Made by a program: the position numbers and the translations under genes. Positions 2,842 to 46,688 of a DNA stretch of 64,000 nucleotides are shown here, one piece after another (the stretch's first letter is position 1; the number at the start of each line of letters is the position of its first letter). The stretch lies in NCBI GenBank assembly GCA_021787735.1, contig JAJYLL010000010.1:1-64000 (forward strand), read 5' to 3'. The notes beneath the pieces are model-generated. The model was not told where the DNA came from, did no database searches, and saw only the letters and a program-made list of their open reading frames with translations. The DNA is from Acidobacteriota bacterium (GTDB taxonomy: Bacteria; Acidobacteriota; Terriglobia; UBA7540).

Positions 2842-5616
2842 TCACGCGGCGGGAACGTGGTTCTTCAAATTGTAAACAGCGCGCACGGTTGAATCGTCGG
2901 TGGTTTCGAGCGTGAAGCCAACTTTTTCTACCATACGCCGCATTTCGGGATTCTCGCGCAGGATTTCCGCCGCCACAAAACCCAACTTCTCGTCGTGGGC
3001 GACCTGAAGCAGCCGGTTCAGCAACTCAGTGCCCAGGCCCTTGCGTTGGAACTCGTCACTGATGACAATGGCAACTTCAGCGCCGCTGGTTTCATGCAGC
3101 TTGCTGAGACGTCCCACTCCGAGGATCTGCTTTTGGCCGCTTGCGGGATCAGTATATTCGGCAACCAGCGCCATCTCGCGGTCGTAATCAATAAAGCAGA
3201 TGCGCGTCAGGCGGTCGTGCTCAATACGCCGGCTGAGCGAAAGAATGTGGAAATAGCGCATGTAGACGCTGCGCTCGGAGAGCGTGTGGTGGAAGTCCAC
3301 CATCAGCGGCTCGTCTTCAGGACGGATGGGCCGGATGACGACCCCCGTGCCGTCCTTCATCGTCCACTTGTAGCTGTATTGCGACGGATAGGCACGGATG
3401 GCGAGCTTGGGAAGCTGATCTTCACTCACCTCGCTGCCGTGCAGAACCACCCGTGCGTCGAGCGCAATCATACCGTCGCCGGAAATCAGCAGCGGATTGA
3501 TGTCAATCTCGCGGATGCGCCGCTGTTCGATGACCAACTGGCTGAAGCGCACCATCAGACGTTCCAGCGCGGCGAGATCAGCGGCCTTCTGGCCGCGCAC
3601 GCCTTTCAGCGCCGTCCAGACGCGGGTGTGCTCCATCATGCGACGGGCCAATGTGGTGTTAAGCGGCGGCAGCGCCAGCGCGCGGTCCTTATAGACCTCG
3701 ACCAGTTGCCCGCCGGATCCAAACAGGAGCACCGGCCCAAACTGCGGATCGAAAGTGCTGCCCAGAATAATTTCGTAGCCGCCAAGCTGAATCATGGGCT
3801 GGACGGTAACGCCGTCGAAATGGCCCGGCCCGGCCTTTTCCAGCACGTTGGCTTCGATGGTGTGAAACGCTTGCCGGACGGCAGCCTCGTCACACAGCCG
3901 CAACTGGACGCCGCCCACGTCGGTCTTGTGCGTGATGGTTTCAGAAAGCAGCTTCAGCACGACGGGATAGCCCGCCTTTTTTGCCAGCTCGACGGCTTCG
4001 TCCTCTGACGCTGCCGCAAAGGTCGGGACTGTCGGGATGCCATAGGCGGCAAGCAGCCGCTTGGATTCATACTCATCAAGAAATGTTCTGCCGGACTCCT
4101 GAACGTGACGGATGATTTCCTGTGCCTCGTCGCGCCGGATTCCGCTTTCCTCGCTGCCTGAAACCAGCATCGGCGTTTCATAAAGACCGCGCAGGTTGTA
4201 ACTGTATTGCCACATGTATTGAAATGTACGGACTGCGGCATCAGGGTAAGGGAAAGTCGGGATATTGGCTCTGTTCAGAATTTCCTGCCCGGCCAGGACT
4301 TCCGCGCCACCCATCCAGCTTGCAAGGATCGGTTTGCCCTTTAGCTTTGAAAAGCGTTTCAGTTTCTCAGCTGTGTCAGAGGGATCCGTCATGGCCTGCG
4401 GTGCCAGGATCACCAGCAAGCCGTCGGCGTTGGGATCCTGAGCCACAATTTCAACCGCCTTTGCGTAGCGGTCGGACCCCGCGTCTCCCAGGATGTCGAC
4501 GGGGTTATTGTGACTCCAGTGCGGCGGCAGAATTCCGTTCAGCGATTCAATCGTTTCGTCCGAAAGCACGGCAAGCTCGCCGCCATGAATGGAAAGGGCG
4601 TCCGTCGCCAACACTCCCGGGCCGCCCGCGTTGGTCAGGATGGCAAGCCGCGGGCCCTTCGGGCGCGGCTGCTTGGCCAGAACCTCCGCCATAGAGAAAA
4701 GGTCGGCAATGCTACCGACGCGCAGGATGCCGGAACGGCGGAACGCGGCTTCCAGAACTTCGTCGCTGCCTGCCAGCGCCCCGGTGTGCGATGCAGCTGC
4801 GCGTGCCGCAGCTTCCGTGCGGCCGGCCTTGATCACGATGATGGGTTTTGAAAGCGCCACTTCTCGCGCGGCGGAGAGAAATGCCCGCGGGTCACCCACC
4901 GACTCCATATAGAGAATAATGCTGTGCGTGTTAGGATCGTCGCCGAGGTGATCGATCAAGTCACCCCAGTCCACATCCAGCATGGAGCCAACGGAAACAA
5001 ACGCGCTGAAGCCCACATGCTCATGCAAACTCCAGTCAAGAATAGCGGTGCACAGCGCGCCGCTCTGGCTGATGAACGCCACGTTGCCCGGCTGAGCGCA
5101 AGTGCGGGCGAAGGTCGCATTCAGGCCCGAAAGAGGGCTCATTACACCCAGACAGTTGGGGCCCACCAGGCGCGTCCTGCCGCGGCGAAGCTGGGCCATG
5201 ATCTCCTTTTCCATCTGGACGCCGGCCTCTCCACATTCCTTGAAGCCAGCCGAAATCACCACTACACCTTTGACTCCGGCGTCAACGCATTCGCCCACGA
5301 TGCCGGGCACCGTGTGCGCCGGCGTGATAATCACCGCGAGGTCCACCTTTTCGGGAATATCCCCAATGGCGGGGTAGGCCTTGATGCCCAGAACCTGGCT
5401 ACGCTTGGGGTTCACGGGATAAACGGTGCCGCCAAACGGGCTGCTGATCAGGTTCCAAAGTAGCGTCCGCCCTACACTGCCCGCGGCTTCCGTCGCGCCT
5501 ATGACCGCGACGCTTTCCGGCGTGAAAAAAACGTCCAGGGGATGGTACGTCTGACGGTAGATGTCGTGCGCACCTTCAATGGCTTGCTTCGCTGATGGTT
5601 TTGATATGTTGGCCAT
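2842..5616 (-). CDS. ADP-forming acyl-CoA synthetase (alpha-beta fusion) with C-terminal GNAT acetyltransferase
   Basis: A protein of about 924 residues. Numbering below is from the upstream in-frame ATG at 5637. Order of domains: CoA-binding Rossmann domain (about 35-130), succinyl-CoA-ligase-like domains (about 155-450) with the phospho-histidine motif SHTGALAG (H284), ATP-grasp domain (about 490-715), and a GNAT domain (about 760-925) with the acetyl-CoA motif RKGLG. This is the architecture of Pat/PatZ-type lysine acetyltransferases. Because the phospho-His is kept, the synthetase half may be active, giving acetate plus ATP from acetyl-CoA. I chose the ATG at 5616 because AGAAAGG lies just upstream of it, whereas 5637 has no ribosome site. 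Neighbouring uspA and acetate kinase genes fit acetyl-CoA overflow or protein acetylation under energy stress. Confidence 0.88.
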
Positions 5617-5833
5617 GATGACCTTTCTATTTTGCATGCTATCGATAAATCAGTTCAAGTGGTTATGCCTTACTGTCGTCTCCCTATCACGACTCGGAGG
5701 CCGCGTTGCGCTGCCACTCCCGCCGCTGCAAACCCCGCCTGCGGCACAGCCTACCCTTCGTGCTCACGAACTCCCTGGCCCCGCGTCATGACCGCGCTCA
5801 CACAGAAGATTTCTTCTCAGAGGAAGTCACTTC

Positions 5834-6887: not shown

Positions 6888-6937
6888 TGTGATCGTGCTC
6901 ACAGATCAGGGTGGATTGGGGTCAGACAATTAAAAAG
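6888..6937 (+). promoter_or_regulatory. CRP/FNR-type class II promoter for the 7063 uspA gene
   Basis: Perfect palindrome TGTGATCGTGCTCACA at 6888-6903 (centre 6895.5). The hexamer GACAAT (6925-6930) starts 29.5 bp after the centre, which places the site at -41.5 for a start near 6937. There is no -35 match, as expected for activator-dependent class II promoters. Confidence 0.7.
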
Positions 6938-7566: not shown

Positions 7567-7671
7567 GGAAAGGGCGCAAAGCAACCGCTTCTGCAGGACA
7601 GAACGCAAAAAGTGAGATGGTGTGGGGGTACACATTGCAGATAATCCGAATGCGACAGAGGAGGGGTGTCA

Positions 7672-7944
7672 ATGCGTGTATCAGTAAAAGGCACCGCCTT
7701 GGCCACCGGGATCTTGTGGGCGGGATGTATTCTTTTCGCGGGACTCGTTAATCTTGCAGCGCCTTCTTACGGCGCGGCTTTTCTCCAAATGACAAGCTCG
7801 ATCTTTCCCGGCTTTCAAAACTCGCACCACTTCCTGGATGTGCTGGTTGGAACAGGATACGGACTGGTGGACGGCGGAATCGGAGGAGCAATCCTTGGCC
7901 TGCTGTACAACTGTTTTGCGGGCAGCGCCAAGCAGGCATCATGA
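7672..7944 (+). CDS. small two-helix membrane protein, holin-like
   Basis: 90 residues from the ATG at 7672, chosen because GAGGAGGGG ends 5 nt upstream; a GTG two codons earlier overlaps that site. One hydrophobic helix lies near the N-terminus and a second near residues 55-85 (GTGYGLVDGGIGGAILG...LYNCF). Similar small acidobacterial proteins are often labelled bacteriophage holin, but there are no phage genes nearby and I do not infer lysis. It sits between a stress gene and another small membrane protein; function unknown. Confidence 0.65.
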   Translation: MRVSVKGTALATGILWAGCILFAGLVNLAAPSYGAAFLQMTSSIFPGFQNSHHFLDVLVGTGYGLVDGGIGGAILGLLYNCFAGSAKQAS

Positions 7945-8097: not shown

Positions 8098-8376
8098 TTG
8101 ACAAGAACATTCAAGCGTTGGCTGGCCATCCTTGCCGGGTGGGTCTTTATCGCCCTCGGCGTGGCAGGACTATTCCTGCCGCTCTTGCAGGGCGTGCTGT
8201 TTCTTCTGATCGGAATCACAATCCTTTCGACGGAATACGACTGGGCGCGCAAACTCCTCGGGAAGTTACGCACGCAATTCCCTTCCCCCAGTAGCCGGCT
8301 TGATGCCGCCAAAGCGCGGGCGCACGAGCTTTTGAAGCGCATTTTCTGTGCCAGGCCCGACCGCAGCCAAGATTGA
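8098..8376 (+). CDS. PGPGW-family small transmembrane protein
   Basis: About 92 residues, apparently starting at TTG (8098). Two membrane segments are separated by LPLLQG, followed by an LSTEYDWARKLL motif. This matches the PGPGW family layout (hydrophobic helix, LPxPG turn, helix, E-x2-WA), although the turn reads LLQG here rather than PGPG. Function of the family is unknown. The start codon is uncertain because the only purine-rich stretch (GGATGGA) is more than 10 nt away. Confidence 0.6.
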   Translation: MTRTFKRWLAILAGWVFIALGVAGLFLPLLQGVLFLLIGITILSTEYDWARKLLGKLRTQFPSPSSRLDAAKARAHELLKRIFCARPDRSQD

Positions 8377-8454: not shown

Positions 8455-8504
8455 TGTGATGCGGGTCACGGAAGCACCCATCGTCGTAGGTGATGATGCA
8501 CTTG
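8455..8504 (+). promoter_or_regulatory. CRP/FNR-type class II promoter upstream of structured RNA 1
   Basis: Near-palindrome TGTGATGCGGGTCACG at 8455-8470 (centre 8462.5; one mismatch in the outermost base). GATGAT at 8492-8497 starts 29.5 bp downstream, so the predicted start is 8504, four bases before the first helix of the RNA at 8508. Confidence 0.6.
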
Positions 8505-8507
8505 CAA

Positions 8508-8661
8508 GGAGGGTAGGCGCAGGCAAAAACGAACCACCCAACAAGCGGAGCACTGCGGCGGCAGAAATGGAGCTCCGCAAGGCCAGCGACTTAACGCGGT
8601 CGTTAGGCCTCCTACCCTCCTAAAAGAACGGCAGGCCCGGGAATCCGTCGGGCCTTATTTT
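8508..8661 (+). ncRNA. structured small RNA 1: three-way junction plus terminator
   Basis: Perfect 10-bp closing helix GGAGGGTAGG (8508-8517) with CCTACCCTCC (8611-8620). Inside are P2, GCGGAGC (8545-8551) with GCTCCGC (8572-8578), which holds a nested CTGC-GGCG-GCAG hairpin (8553-8564), and P3, AGGCC (8580-8584) with GGCCT (8606-8610), capped by TAACG-CGGT-CGTTA (8592-8605). P3 abuts the closing helix directly. A 27-nt single strand joins P1 to P2. A terminator follows: GGCCCG (8634-8639) with CGGGCC (8649-8654), then TTATTTTT. The nearest downstream gene begins 368 bp later with its own promoter, so this is probably a free RNA. I do not recognise the family. Confidence 0.65.
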
Positions 8662-8768
8662 TCCCAAATAAAGTCCCTGTTCTGATTATTGCCGAGGGTG
8701 TATGTCGGTACCCGGCAAGGCTTGCTCGCGGCGGAAGCCCCCAAGAAGTTTTCAGGGGGTGCCAACAC

Positions 8769-8804
8769 TTGATAGCCGCAAAGGGCGGTGATATGTTAAA
8801 AGGG
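8769..8804 (+). promoter_or_regulatory. sigma-70-type promoter for the sigma-54 activator gene
   Basis: TTGATA (8769-8774), a 17-bp spacer, then TATGTT (8792-8797). It would give a leader of about 225 nt before the GTG at 9029. Confidence 0.5.
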
Positions 8805-9028: not shown

Positions 9029-11380
9029 GTGGATAACTCACTCAATCAAGGAGCCTCACTCTTAAAACCCGACGCAGCCGCGCCGATGCGCCTTGCAAAC
9101 GCACAAAGCGAAACGCAAACCCTGCTTGAACAGTTTTTTGAGGCCTCGCCCGACGGCGTTCTTGTGGTGGACACGGCGGGACTGATCAAGCTGGTTAATG
9201 CCCAAACGGAGAAAATGTTCGGGTACAGCCGGTCAGAACTACAGGGCCAGCCGATTGAACTTCTGGTTCCCGACCGCTTCCGAAAAGCGCATGCGCAGGA
9301 CCGCAACAAGTATCAGGGCGCACCCGTCATGCGCCCGATGGGCGGCGCGCTGGAATTGTTTGCCAAGCGCAGCGACGGCAGTGAATTTCCCGTCGAGATC
9401 ATGCTGAGCCCGATCAAATCCACCAGGCAAACGATGGTGCTGACCGTGATTCGCGACATCACGCTGCGCAAGCGGGCAGAAGATGCGCTGCGCACCAGCG
9501 AAGAACAGCTCCAGAGCATCCTGGACAACTCAACCGCCGTCATTTACGTCAAGGACCTCGAAAATCGCTACCTCCGCGTCAACCGCCGCTTCGAGGAACT
9601 CTGCAACATCCCGCATGGCCAGGCTAAAGGGAAAACTGATTACGATCTGTACCCAAAAGAAATTGTAGACAGCCTGCGCGCGAACGATCAGAAGGTCCTG
9701 CGTGCCGCCAGCCCAATGGAATTTGAAGAGGTGGTCACCCACACGGGCGGAGTTCACACCTATATTTCGATCAAGTTCCCTCTGTTTGACCCCTGGCGAC
9801 GTCCTTATGCCGTAGCCGGCATCTCCACTGATATTACGGAACGCAAGAGGGCGGAAGAAGCCCTGCTGCTCGAAATCAGCATGGTACTGCTCTCCCACCT
9901 GGATGTCAGGGAACTTCTCACCGCTATCTCAGCGACTCTTCGTCGAATCATGCCGCACGAGTATGCTTCGCTTGCTCTCCATGGCCCGGAAAGCAGAGAC
10001 CTCCGCCTGCTTTCTCTGGAACACCCCGAGACAGAAGCTGCCTTGGGACGAGAGATGCTCTCCCCTGCTCAAGAGGCCCTGGCGGGCCGTGTAATGAATT
10101 CCCGCGAGCCGCTTGTGCTGAATGACCTCGGGAACAACCCCGACCGATTCCATGCAATCAGCCGCCTGGCGGCTGAGGGCGTCAAGTCCGCCTGCTTCCT
10201 GCCGCTTATGACTCAGGACCGTGTGCTCGGAACGCTGAACCTGGTCAGCCGCCAGAAAGGCGCCTTTGATCAGCAACACGTCGACCTGCTTCAGCAGGTG
10301 TCGAGCCATATCGCTATTGCGCTGGACAACGCGCTGACGTATCGCAAGGTTACGGAGTTGAAGAAGCGGCTGACCGAAGAGAAACTCTACCTTGAAGAAG
10401 AGCTCCGTACTGAATACCATTTTGAGGAGATCATCGGCGAAAGTCCTGCTCTGAAAAGGATCCTGAAGCAGGTAGAATCCGTCGGCCCTACCAACGCCAC
10501 TGTCCTGATTCTGGGTGAAACCGGTACGGGAAAGGAGCTGATCGCTCGCGCAATTCACGATTTGAGCCCCCGGCGCGACTGCACCTTCGTCAAGCTGAAT
10601 TGCGCCGCTATCCCAACCGGCCTGCTGGAAAGCGAACTTTTTGGGCATGAAAAGGGCGCCTTTACCGGAGCAATTTCGCAGAAAATCGGCCGGCTGGAAC
10701 TGGCAAATGAAGGCACTCTCTTCCTGGACGAAGTTGGCGACATTCCACTGGAACTCCAACCCAAACTGCTGCGAGCCCTCCAGGAAAAAGAGTTTGAGCG
10801 GCTTGGCAGCACGAAAACCATTCCTGTGGATGTTCGCCTGCTTGCGGCGACCAATCGCGACTTGGCAAGGATGGTCGCGGACCGTCAGTTCCGAAGCGAC
10901 CTCTATTACCGCCTGAAAGTCTTCCCGATTACAGTCCCTCCGTTGCGCGAACGCGCCGAAGATATCCCCATCCTGGTGCGTTACTTTGCCCAGAAACACG
11001 CAGAAAGAATGCACAGGCGCATCGAGACGATTCCGCCGGAAAGCATGGAAGCCCTCGTGCGATGGCGCTGGCCAGGCAATGTGCGTGAACTCGAGAATAT
11101 TATCGAGCGGGCTGTTATCCTCTCTCCGGGCCCGGTTCTTCGCATCCCGTTGGCAGAACTGGCATCGGTCGAAGAGCGAAGCGCGAACGGCAATGGCTCT
11201 GACACGCTGGAAGACGCAGAACGCGAACTCATTATCCGTGTTCTACGAGAAACGCGCGGCATCATCGCCGGTCCTAACGGGGCAGCTGCCCGCCTGGGTC
11301 TGAAGAGGACCACGCTCAATTCCAAAATGCGAAAGCTGGGAATAAGGCGTGATGATATCATCAGGTCGCCATTTGCGTGA
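9029..11380 (+). CDS. sigma-54-dependent transcriptional activator, PAS-PAS-GAF-AAA+-Fis
   Basis: 783 residues, GTG start with AAGGGA upstream. Domains: PAS 1 (about 30-145), PAS 2 (about 160-275), GAF (about 285-435), AAA+ (about 465-700) and a Fis-type helix-turn-helix near 750-780 ([16 protein letters not shown]). The AAA+ domain has Walker A GETGTGKE (496-503), the sigma-54 contact loop GAFTGA (543-548) and Walker B FLDE (565-568). It is a cytoplasmic enhancer-binding activator that senses small ligands or redox through PAS/GAF domains. There is no receiver domain or partner kinase nearby. A candidate sigma-54 promoter and palindromes directly downstream suggest that the next gene is a target. 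Confidence 0.92.
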
Positions 11381-11595: not shown

Positions 11596-12012
11596 ATGGC
11601 AGAACAGATCAATGCCCTGCTGGTTCACGCTCGGGATGAGACATTCCTGGAGCTGGCACGGACCCTTCGCGCCCTCAACATCAAGGTCATTCATGCCAGA
11701 AATTGCCGGGAAGCTTCTCAGCACATTAAGACGCATGGCGGACTCGATCTCGTGTTTGCGGGAACGAGCCTGCAAGATGGAGTCTGGGCTGATGTGCTGA
11801 AACTGGCACAGCAGTCGAAGAAATATCTGCCCGTAATAGTCGTTTCACGGATGGTTGACGTGGCAGTTTACCTTGATGCGCTGGGAGAAGGCGCGTTTGA
11901 TTTTGTTACTCCCCCATTCCTGGCCTCGGACTTGGCGCACATCGTTCGGTCAGCGATCTACAAGGAACTGGTCAGGGTGAAACAGGACCTTACGGCGCCG
12001 CCAGCCGTTTGA
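11596..12012 (+). CDS. degenerate receiver-domain protein without phospho-acceptor Asp
   Basis: 138 residues with the alternating strand/helix pattern of a CheY-like receiver. The usual acidic pair near the N-terminus is replaced by HARDE. The strand that normally ends in the phosphorylated Asp reads LVFAGTSLQDG, with Gly at the acceptor position. The conserved Lys before Pro-Phe is replaced by Pro (TPPF). It is therefore likely a pseudo-receiver that signals by binding rather than phosphorylation. A GGAG ribosome site precedes the ATG. It follows the sigma-54 activator, has a candidate sigma-54 promoter, and precedes a STAS protein and an FNR/CRP regulator. Confidence 0.7.
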   Translation: MAEQINALLVHARDETFLELARTLRALNIKVIHARNCREASQHIKTHGGLDLVFAGTSLQDGVWADVLKLAQQSKKYLPVIVVSRMVDVAVYLDALGEGAFDFVTPPFLASDLAHIVRSAIYKELVRVKQDLTAPPAV

Positions 12013-12151: not shown

Positions 12152-12448
12152 ATGCTTAAAATAACATTTAAAGATACCCCGGAAAGCACAAAGATCAAAC
12201 TCGAAGGAAAACTTTCCGGACCGTGGGTCGAGGAGTTGGAGCGAAGTTGGAAGGAACACTCGTTTCGGGGTTCTGAAAATGTAATAATAGATTTGTCGGG
12301 TGTCACATTTATCGACCCCGGGGGGAAGAATCTTCTGGCCCGAATGGTCGATAAGGGGGTCTGCTTCGAAGGCACGCAATTAATGACACAATATGTGATC
12401 GACGAGATCATGCGGGCTGGAACACGTGCTGGCAAAGGCGGAGGTTAA
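12152..12448 (+). CDS. STAS-like (anti-sigma factor antagonist-like) protein
   Basis: 98 residues. The segment NVIIDLSGVTFIDPGGKNLL matches the STAS core, where the residue after ID is usually a phosphorylatable Ser; here it is Pro-Gly-Gly, so phospho-switching seems lost. The N-terminal strand-turn (LEGKLSGPWVEELE) also fits STAS. The stop codon (12446-12448) lies just before the ATG of the FNR/CRP-type gene at 12450, and that gene's ribosome site is inside this reading frame. The two are translationally coupled, so this protein may act with the regulator. Confidence 0.7.
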   Translation: MLKITFKDTPESTKIKLEGKLSGPWVEELERSWKEHSFRGSENVIIDLSGVTFIDPGGKNLLARMVDKGVCFEGTQLMTQYVIDEIMRAGTRAGKGGG

Positions 12449-12449
12449 G

Positions 12450-13166
12450 ATGAGATCGCCATACGGATTGGAGCTGGTTGAAGACTGCCAAACCTGCTCA
12501 AACAAGGCCGATGGGTTCTTCTGCGATCTTTCTCCAGAAGGGCTGAAAGCTTTCGAGGCGATTAAGTACACCACCGCATACCCCGCCGGCGCCGTGCTTT
12601 TTGTTGAAGGACAATCCGCCCAGGGCGTTTTTCTGCTCTGCAAGGGACGCGTGAAGCTCTCGATGACGTCAAGCGAAGGCAGGACCCTGATTCTGAGAAT
12701 TGTGAGGCCGGGAGAAATCCTGGGAATGCACGCAACCGTCTCTGACACTGCATTTCAGGCCACCGCCGAAACCCTTGAACCCTGCCAGGTGAACTTTATC
12801 AAACGCGACGATTTTCTGCGCCTTCTCCGTGAACACGGAGACGCCTCCATTCATGCAGCGCAGCAGTTGAGCGGCAGCTATCAGACGGCCTGTGAGCAGG
12901 TCCGGTCACTTGGTCTGTCACAGTCGGCGCCCGAAAAGCTGGCCCGTTTCCTGCTGGAATGGTCGGCCAAAGGACAGCAGTCCAAACAGGGCATCCGCGT
13001 GAAACTGACATTGACCCACGAGGAAATCGGCCAGATTATCGGGACTTCCCGCGAAACTGTCACTCGGACGCTGGGCGAATTCAAAGCCAAGCACCTTGCC
13101 GAACTGAAAGGGTCAACCCTTGTAATCCAAAACAAGGCAGCGCTGGAAGCCTTCCTAGGCGGATAG
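12450..13166 (+). CDS. CRP/FNR-family regulator with four candidate Fe-S cysteines
   Basis: 238 residues from the ATG at 12450, chosen over an upstream in-frame start because GGAGG ends 5 nt before it. The N-terminus has C13-x2-C16-x8-C25, and the cyclic-nucleotide-like barrel (about 40-130) carries C112 in EPCQVNF. This mirrors the three N-terminal cysteines plus one central cysteine that bind the 4Fe-4S cluster of E. coli FNR, so oxygen sensing is likely (inference). The C-terminal helix-turn-helix includes SRETVTRTL (200-208), giving R201, E202 and R206, equivalent to CRP R180, E181 and R185 that read GTGA half sites. GTGA-N6-TCAC palindromes occur at six nearby promoters. C64 is an extra cysteine. 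Confidence 0.85.
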   Translation: MRSPYGLELVEDCQTCSNKADGFFCDLSPEGLKAFEAIKYTTAYPAGAVLFVEGQSAQGVFLLCKGRVKLSMTSSEGRTLILRIVRPGEILGMHATVSDTAFQATAETLEPCQVNFIKRDDFLRLLREHGDASIHAAQQLSGSYQTACEQVRSLGLSQSAPEKLARFLLEWSAKGQQSKQGIRVKLTLTHEEIGQIIGTSRETVTRTLGEFKAKHLAELKGSTLVIQNKAALEAFLGG

Positions 13167-25857: not shown

Positions 25858-25929
25858 GTAAATATTTCTACCAGCCCCCGCTCACAGGAGCAGTGAGCTT
25901 GCTCACGCCTGCTTGTGACCATAATCACA
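25858..25929 (-). promoter_or_regulatory. tandem CRP/FNR-type sites and promoter of the electron-conduit operon
   Basis: Perfect TGTGACCATAATCACA (25914-25929, centre 25921.5) and AGTGAGCTTGCTCACG (25892-25907, centre 25899.5), 22 bp apart. Reading leftward, TAGAAA (25870 down to 25865) starts 29.5 bp from the nearer centre, so the predicted start is 25858, with a 278-nt leader before the decaheme gene. Confidence 0.7.
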
Positions 25930-26850: not shown

Positions 26851-26900
26851 AATGCGAAGCCTAGGACGCTTTCAAGTCCCAATCTGTGATGCAGGTCACA
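26851..26900 (-). promoter_or_regulatory. CRP/FNR-type class II promoter for the Cys-rich gene
   Basis: Perfect TGTGATGCAGGTCACA (26885-26900, centre 26892.5). Reading leftward, TAGGCT (26863 down to 26858) starts 29.5 bp away. The predicted start is 26851, 60 nt before the ATG at 26791. Confidence 0.7.
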
Positions 26901-29811: not shown

Positions 29812-30081
29812 TCATGGCATTGGCGGCGAGAACAAGCTCCGGTTCGCTTTTTGGCCATCGTTTATTTTCAACAAGATCGGTAGGTTCGTTTTCCGGTTCG
29901 TTTTCGGTTCGTTTTTTCCACAGCTACGTGTTTTCAACAACTTCTCCGCTTCGTTTTTCGGTTCGTTCCGGTTCGTTTTTTGGCCATTTCTTAGTATTTT
30001 CAATAACTTCTCCGGTTCGTTTTTCAAAAAAGGTATTCTTTTTTTATTTTTTTCCCTAAAAACCGGTGACAAACGAACCAT
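29812..30081 (-). repeat. low-complexity repeat stretch encoding KNEPEKLLK-like units
   Basis: The minus strand is dominated by AACGAACC blocks (nine or so) separated by GAGAAGTTATTGAAAA-type blocks and two copies of GATGGCCAAAAA/AATGGCCAAAAA. It is A-rich, unlike its neighbours. The frame from ATG 30081 would encode 89 residues rich in Lys, Asn, Glu and Leu with KNEPEKLLK and KNEAEKLLK repeats. No good ribosome site is present. Similar NEPEKLLK stretches occur in many acidobacterial genomes to my memory, annotated as hypothetical proteins. Whether it is translated is unknown; the constant reading frame in the repeat may only reflect its length. Confidence 0.55.
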
Positions 30082-46583: not shown

Positions 46584-46688
46584 TCAGACTTCGGGTCCTG
46601 TGCAACGGATGTTCGTGAACCCCGCCAGGTCCGGAAGGAAGCAACGGTAGCGAGCCGCTCTGTGTGCCGCAGTTAACCCGAAGTCTGA
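46584..46688 (+). ncRNA. ffs: signal recognition particle RNA, small bacterial type
   Basis: The conserved apical motif CAGGTCCGGAAGGAAGCA is at 46626-46643. TCAGACTTCGGGT (46584-46596) pairs perfectly over 13 bp with ACCCGAAGTCTGA (46676-46688), giving the single long hairpin of a 4.5S-like RNA. It binds Ffh for co-translational membrane targeting. Location before dnaX is common in bacteria. Confidence 0.95.

Follow-up and report, generated by a model that had tools for sequence, protein, structure and literature searches.

The window analysed here is a 64,000-nucleotide stretch of contig JAJYLL010000010.1 from an Acidobacteriota bacterium. It contains an intergenic segment at 8508-8620 that encodes an evolutionarily conserved folded RNA. 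The segment is flanked by a PGPGW/DUF454 gene (8098-8376) and by a gene for a PAS-PAS-GAF-sigma-54 activator-Fis protein (9029-11380), and all three have the same orientation on the forward strand. Downstream of the activator gene, also on the forward strand, are genes for a response-regulator receiver domain protein (11596-12012), a STAS-domain protein (12152-12448) and a Crp/Fnr-family regulator (12426-13166). The RNA stands upstream of this one operon in all three genomes that carry it, namely the window's own, a relative of the same genus (G002, 78% identity) and an Acidobacteria MAG from another genus of the same family (G014). Further upstream, at 7666-7944 (+), a 92-residue protein with no Pfam match is encoded at the same position in G002.

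The first-pass annotation had described this segment as an unrecognised structured RNA with a closing helix, two inner hairpins and a terminator. Its sequence and coordinates were correct, and all of these elements were found on folding: a 10-bp helix formed between 8508-8517 and 8611-8620, enclosing the two inner hairpins and followed by a terminator-like hairpin at 8633-8655. The predicted transcript from 8504 to 8670 (167 nt) had a minimum free energy of -69.7 kcal/mol, as against -54.1 ± 4.2 kcal/mol for shuffled sequences (z = -3.7), and none of the 200 shuffles folded as well.

The two homologs were found by DNA searches of relatives, and a covariance model was built from the three sequences. 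Searching 399 genomes of the class, all 39 genomes of the family with relaxed filters, 40 of the order and 396 of the phylum with this model recovered only the same three carriers, each with one match, and the RNA is single-copy in its own genome. A fourth match (L068 in G092) was discarded as a palindromic hairpin that matched on both strands. A pattern scan of 84,980 GTDB species returned one record, contig JAJYHU010000242.1 of an Acidobacteria MAG, which matches the G014 genome, and a scan of viral contigs returned no match. Patterns with one or two mismatches gave further loci (L004-L025), which were rejected since they occurred at about the frequency of the reversed control and were located in unrelated sequence. 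Another genome of the same genus (G001) lacked the RNA and also lacked an activator match at the threshold used. The RNA family is thus narrow and lies within the Acidobacteria, with three genomes so far.

The three sequences share the closing helix GGAGGGT...ACCCTCC, a hairpin GCGGAG...CTCCGC and a near-invariant hairpin, AAGGCCAGCGACTTAACGCGGYC. The consensus fold of the plain MAFFT alignment had a z-score of -9.8 and was better than all 300 column shuffles, and the homolog cores folded singly gave z-scores of -4.5 to -5.2 each. In the closing helix P1, the 5' strand GGAGGGTAGG (8508-8517) pairs with the 3' strand CCTACCCTCC (8611-8620). The GGAGGGT/ACCCTCC portion is invariant, and the next pair changes from A-U to G-C in a compensatory manner. 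Two base pairs towards the end of P1 are each broken in a single sequence. P2 is formed by GCGGAGC (8545-8551) and GCTCCGC (8572-8578). It is followed by an invariant AA and the P3 hairpin GGCC-A-GCG-ACTTAA-CGC-GGTC (8579-8601), which is identical in the three genomes save for one U/C difference in the stem. A further helix, P1b, had been overlooked in the first reading. It joins the strand after P1 (GGCAAAAAC, 8522-8530) to the strand after P3 (GTTAGGCC, 8602-8609) and carries a compensatory change from C-G to G-C. P1b is strong in G002 and G014. In the window it is weak, and folding that sequence alone gives an extended P3 in its place. The description of the 3' part needed revision: a longer P3 is the window's own minimum, while the conserved fold is GGCC-A-GCG-ACTTAA-CGC-GGYC plus P1b. 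Likewise, the inner hairpins are present in the window, but the nested CTGC-GGCG-GCAG (8553-8564) is not kept in the homologs. With only three sequences the compensatory changes are few, and the set is too small for a formal covariation claim.

A short word within the unpaired junction (8526-8535), AAAACGAASC, also belongs to a dispersed intergenic repeat (AAAACGAACCGAAAACGAAGC...). The window contains a copy of this repeat at 29883-30023 (-), and other copies were found at loci L046-L065. There were about 7 matches in the window's own genome, 26 in G001, 25 in G002 and 47 in G014, and none in two further genomes that are considered below (G022 and G006).

Upstream of the RNA lies a Crp/Fnr-type dyad, TGTGATGCGGGTCACG (8455-8470, +), which the first-pass annotation had taken to be an activator site. 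Two observations agreed with that assignment. First, the window contains more such dyads than expected: seven TGTGA-N6-TCACA sites at up to one mismatch against an expectation of 1.2, a count reached by none of 100 shuffles. Second, the first position of the TGTGA-N6-TCAC-type dyad precedes GGAGGG by exactly 53 nt in each of the three genomes. The spacer between the dyad and the RNA has diverged, with only 11 to 16 of 32 positions identical, yet a GANNNT motif is kept in register at -12 to -7 in all three (GATGAT at 8492-8497 in the window, GACCCT in G002 and GAGGAT in G014) and is the predicted -10 element. The centre of the dyad (8462.5) places the predicted transcription start at 8504 when an offset of 41.5 nt is applied. 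A position of -41.5 is an activating one for Crp/Fnr proteins, and this predicted geometry is conserved in the three genomes. Thus, the homologs keep both the fold and the exact dyad-RNA spacing, in line with the proposal that this RNA has its own activator-type promoter.

The 3' boundary is clear in the window but less so in the two homologs. In the window, terminator scanning identified an intrinsic-terminator-like hairpin with a T-rich tail, TATTTTT (8633-8663, stem 8633-8655). A strong terminator was seen in the window alone; in G014 a GC hairpin is followed by TATTTCT, which is weak, and in G002 the terminator scans detected no U-run after the RNA. A second promoter-like block, TTGATA-17-TATGTT (8769-8797, +), lies between the RNA and the operon. 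Similar blocks occur in G002 and G014, so that all three genomes have one 63 to 147 nt past the RNA. This block is probably the operon's own promoter. The terminator-like site and the conserved second block together favour a separate transcript.

A covariance search against Rfam 15, at gathering and at relaxed thresholds, matched the RNA to no family. Acido-1 (RF01686) and Acido-Lenti-1 (RF01687), two motifs described from acidobacteria (PMC2864571), gave no match at the gathering score, nor at E-values up to 1, in the window locus, G002 or G014. Both are, like the present RNA, acidobacterial candidate non-coding RNAs without a tie to an mRNA, but their models do not match it. An sX5 match in G014 (E = 0.82, 20 bits against a cut-off of 50) was put down to chance. 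Across the whole window, Rfam matched nothing but a bacterial small SRP RNA at 46589-46686 (+).

It had also been suggested that the 3' strand of the closing helix, with its CCTCC and CCCTCC stretches, could pair with ribosome sites. This proposal was not supported. In the predicted transcript the strand is paired with a probability of about 0.97 (mean unpaired probability 0.03 over 8610-8620), and the neighbouring translation-start regions have no conserved complementarity to it. The CCUCC element is buried, which rules out an anti-Shine-Dalgarno action for the free fold. More generally, nine neighbouring translation starts compared in two genomes showed no conserved pairing with the RNA, and a search within the window for seeds complementary to the P3 loop gave 16 matches against 16 expected.

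The last gene of the operon offers a plausible activator for the RNA. Besides its family matches, the Crp/Fnr regulator has a Crp-type recognition helix, SRETVTR, within its helix-turn-helix, which closely resembles the helix with which Crp recognises TGTGA. Its N-terminus carries CX2CX8C plus one further cysteine, an arrangement read from the sequences that is reminiscent of iron-sulphur Fnr. Because of this helix and the Fnr-like cysteines, the regulator is a candidate for the protein that binds the dyad. Hfq was detected above the Pfam cut-off in G000, G002, G014, G022 and G006, and is encoded in every carrier of the RNA.

Perfect TGTGA-N6-TCACA dyads occur in the window at 6888-6903, 25914-25929 and 26885-26900. 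The first of these is flanked by two universal stress protein genes in divergent orientation, which suggests a local Crp/Fnr regulon. An ADP-forming acyl-CoA synthetase fused to a GNAT acetyltransferase domain is encoded at 2842-5637 (-), beside universal stress protein genes. These neighbours would fit a regulon for energy or oxygen stress, and a possible low-oxygen link of the RNA is drawn solely from the type of the regulator, a class whose members often sense oxygen, and from the neighbouring genes.

Our preferred reading, to which we assign a probability of about 0.6, is that the segment from 8504 to about 8660 encodes a small RNA, roughly 120-157 nt long, that is transcribed independently under Crp/Fnr activation and acts in trans. 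A Crp/Fnr-family protein, plausibly the product of the operon's fourth gene, would bind the dyad at -41.5 and activate transcription. The RNA would fold into a closed multibranch structure composed of P1, P1b, P2 and the invariant P3, and would end at the 8633-8655 terminator. It would then most likely act in trans by offering the A-rich junction strand, the P3 hairpin or both to mRNAs or to a protein, with Hfq available, while the operon behind it would use its own promoter.

The main alternative, which we consider possible but clearly less probable, treats the RNA as a 5' leader belonging to the sigma-54 activator operon. One long Crp/Fnr-driven transcript would then cover both, and the RNA with the 8633-8655 hairpin would serve as an attenuator, an mRNA stabiliser or a protein-binding leader that tunes read-through. 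The arrangement is compatible with this, since the RNA is always directly upstream of the operon in the same direction, and the two co-occur. Moreover, several relatives without the RNA have a similar dyad immediately in front of the activator gene. Driving this gene may have been the dyad's original function, which would favour a leader. However, the second promoter-like block separates the RNA from the operon in all three genomes, although both promoters may be used. The RNA lies about 85 nt from the gene at the closest and over 400 nt at the farthest, and in G006 the gene and the analogous RNA, described below, have a repeat-like stretch between them. No alternative antiterminator pairing was seen.

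Still less probable is that the RNA acts mainly by binding a protein through the invariant P3 hairpin, for example to sequester an RNA-binding regulator or to bind a protein encoded in the neighbouring operon. Conservation does peak in a short hairpin, which has an A-bulge and an invariant ACTTAA loop and would be well suited to protein binding, and no pairing with an mRNA stood out, but a conserved loop is equally expected of a loop-loop seed and just three sequences are available. Least likely is a chance fold or another DNA element, such as a repeat, a recombination site or a small protein gene. In favour of such a reading are the GC-richness of the closing helix, a KASDLTR reading frame across the invariant hairpin in all three genomes and the resemblance of part of the junction to the AAAACGAASC word, but the z-score of the alignment fold, the single copy per genome and the fixed promoter geometry all speak against it, as does the lack of codon-position bias or a shared start codon. 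The small protein was rejected as a candidate in its own right: the window and G002 have only one frame in common, in which the substitutions are distributed 9/6/9 over the three codon positions, and G014 is out of frame.

In a third genus of the same family (g5), the homologous PAS/PAS sigma-54 activator gene is also preceded by an RNA, although a different one. Both G022 (L102) and G006 (L103) contain a strongly folded segment (GTGTRACGGCGGAG...CTCCGCCGTYRC; z = -3.8 and -4.0, respectively) after a Crp-type dyad and before the activator gene. We refer to it as type B, and to the window RNA as type A. By direct count, the distance from the dyad to the closing helix is 65 nt in both genomes. 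The two sequences are 75% identical, and their closing helix contains a compensatory change. Type B matched neither Rfam nor the model of the window RNA. The two types have in common the dyad, a closed RNA, the same activator family and a C/U-rich 3' arm of the closing helix. They differ in the dyad distance (65 versus 53 nt) and in the absence from type B of the invariant P3 hairpin, and there is no detectable sequence match between them. That they agree in place, promoter and shape is a notable coincidence, and homology is unproven. Other structured windows before activator orthologs were set aside: the hairpin of L101 lies in an inverted repeat, GTAGCGGCGGG, with the look of a dispersed element, and there was no dyad at L080 or L088. 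Two further matches to the type B query (L104 and L105) had neither dyad nor fold and look like chance.

These observations raise the tentative and rather doubtful idea that, within one acidobacterial family, the Crp/Fnr regulator and its sigma-54 activator operon have a resident RNA gene associated with them. This RNA gene would keep its place, promoter and closed shape but undergo turnover of its sequence from one genus to the next, with type A in g1 and g13 and type B in g5.

Oxygen-regulated small RNAs are already known from other bacteria. In Pseudomonas aeruginosa, the oxygen regulator Anr upregulates PhrS (PMC9308961). Like FnrS of Escherichia coli and PhrS, the window RNA is an intergenic small RNA behind a Crp/Fnr-family dyad in a host that has Hfq. 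It differs from them in having a far more closed multibranch fold and in adjoining an operon that encodes a Crp/Fnr regulator, and there is no sequence or covariance match to either. DrrS (MTS1338) of Mycobacterium tuberculosis is a DosR-regulated structured small RNA that is processed from a longer precursor (PMC5360333). It resembles the candidate in being structured and under a hypoxia/NO-type regulator, but it comes from a different phylum, its regulator is a response regulator rather than a Crp/Fnr protein, and the Rfam search linked the two RNAs by no match. DosR and universal stress proteins are linked in the setting of dormancy, and the window neighbourhood is likewise rich in universal stress proteins. 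With PhrS and DrrS known, the window RNA is new as a sequence family, not in kind.

A survey from 2022 lists four annotated small-RNA families for the Acidobacteria (PMC9029176, Table 1), and the present RNA is a well-supported further candidate for this phylum, which is abundant in soils. Since its start, promoter, end and regulator are all predicted, a single RNA experiment could test it. Control at the RNA level, which is almost undescribed in Acidobacteria, would through this RNA be linked to a sigma-54 activator and to a regulator of the Crp/Fnr type. If a resident RNA with sequence turnover does exist in this family, it would give a redox or stress circuit an RNA arm that evolves fast and is under autogenous control.
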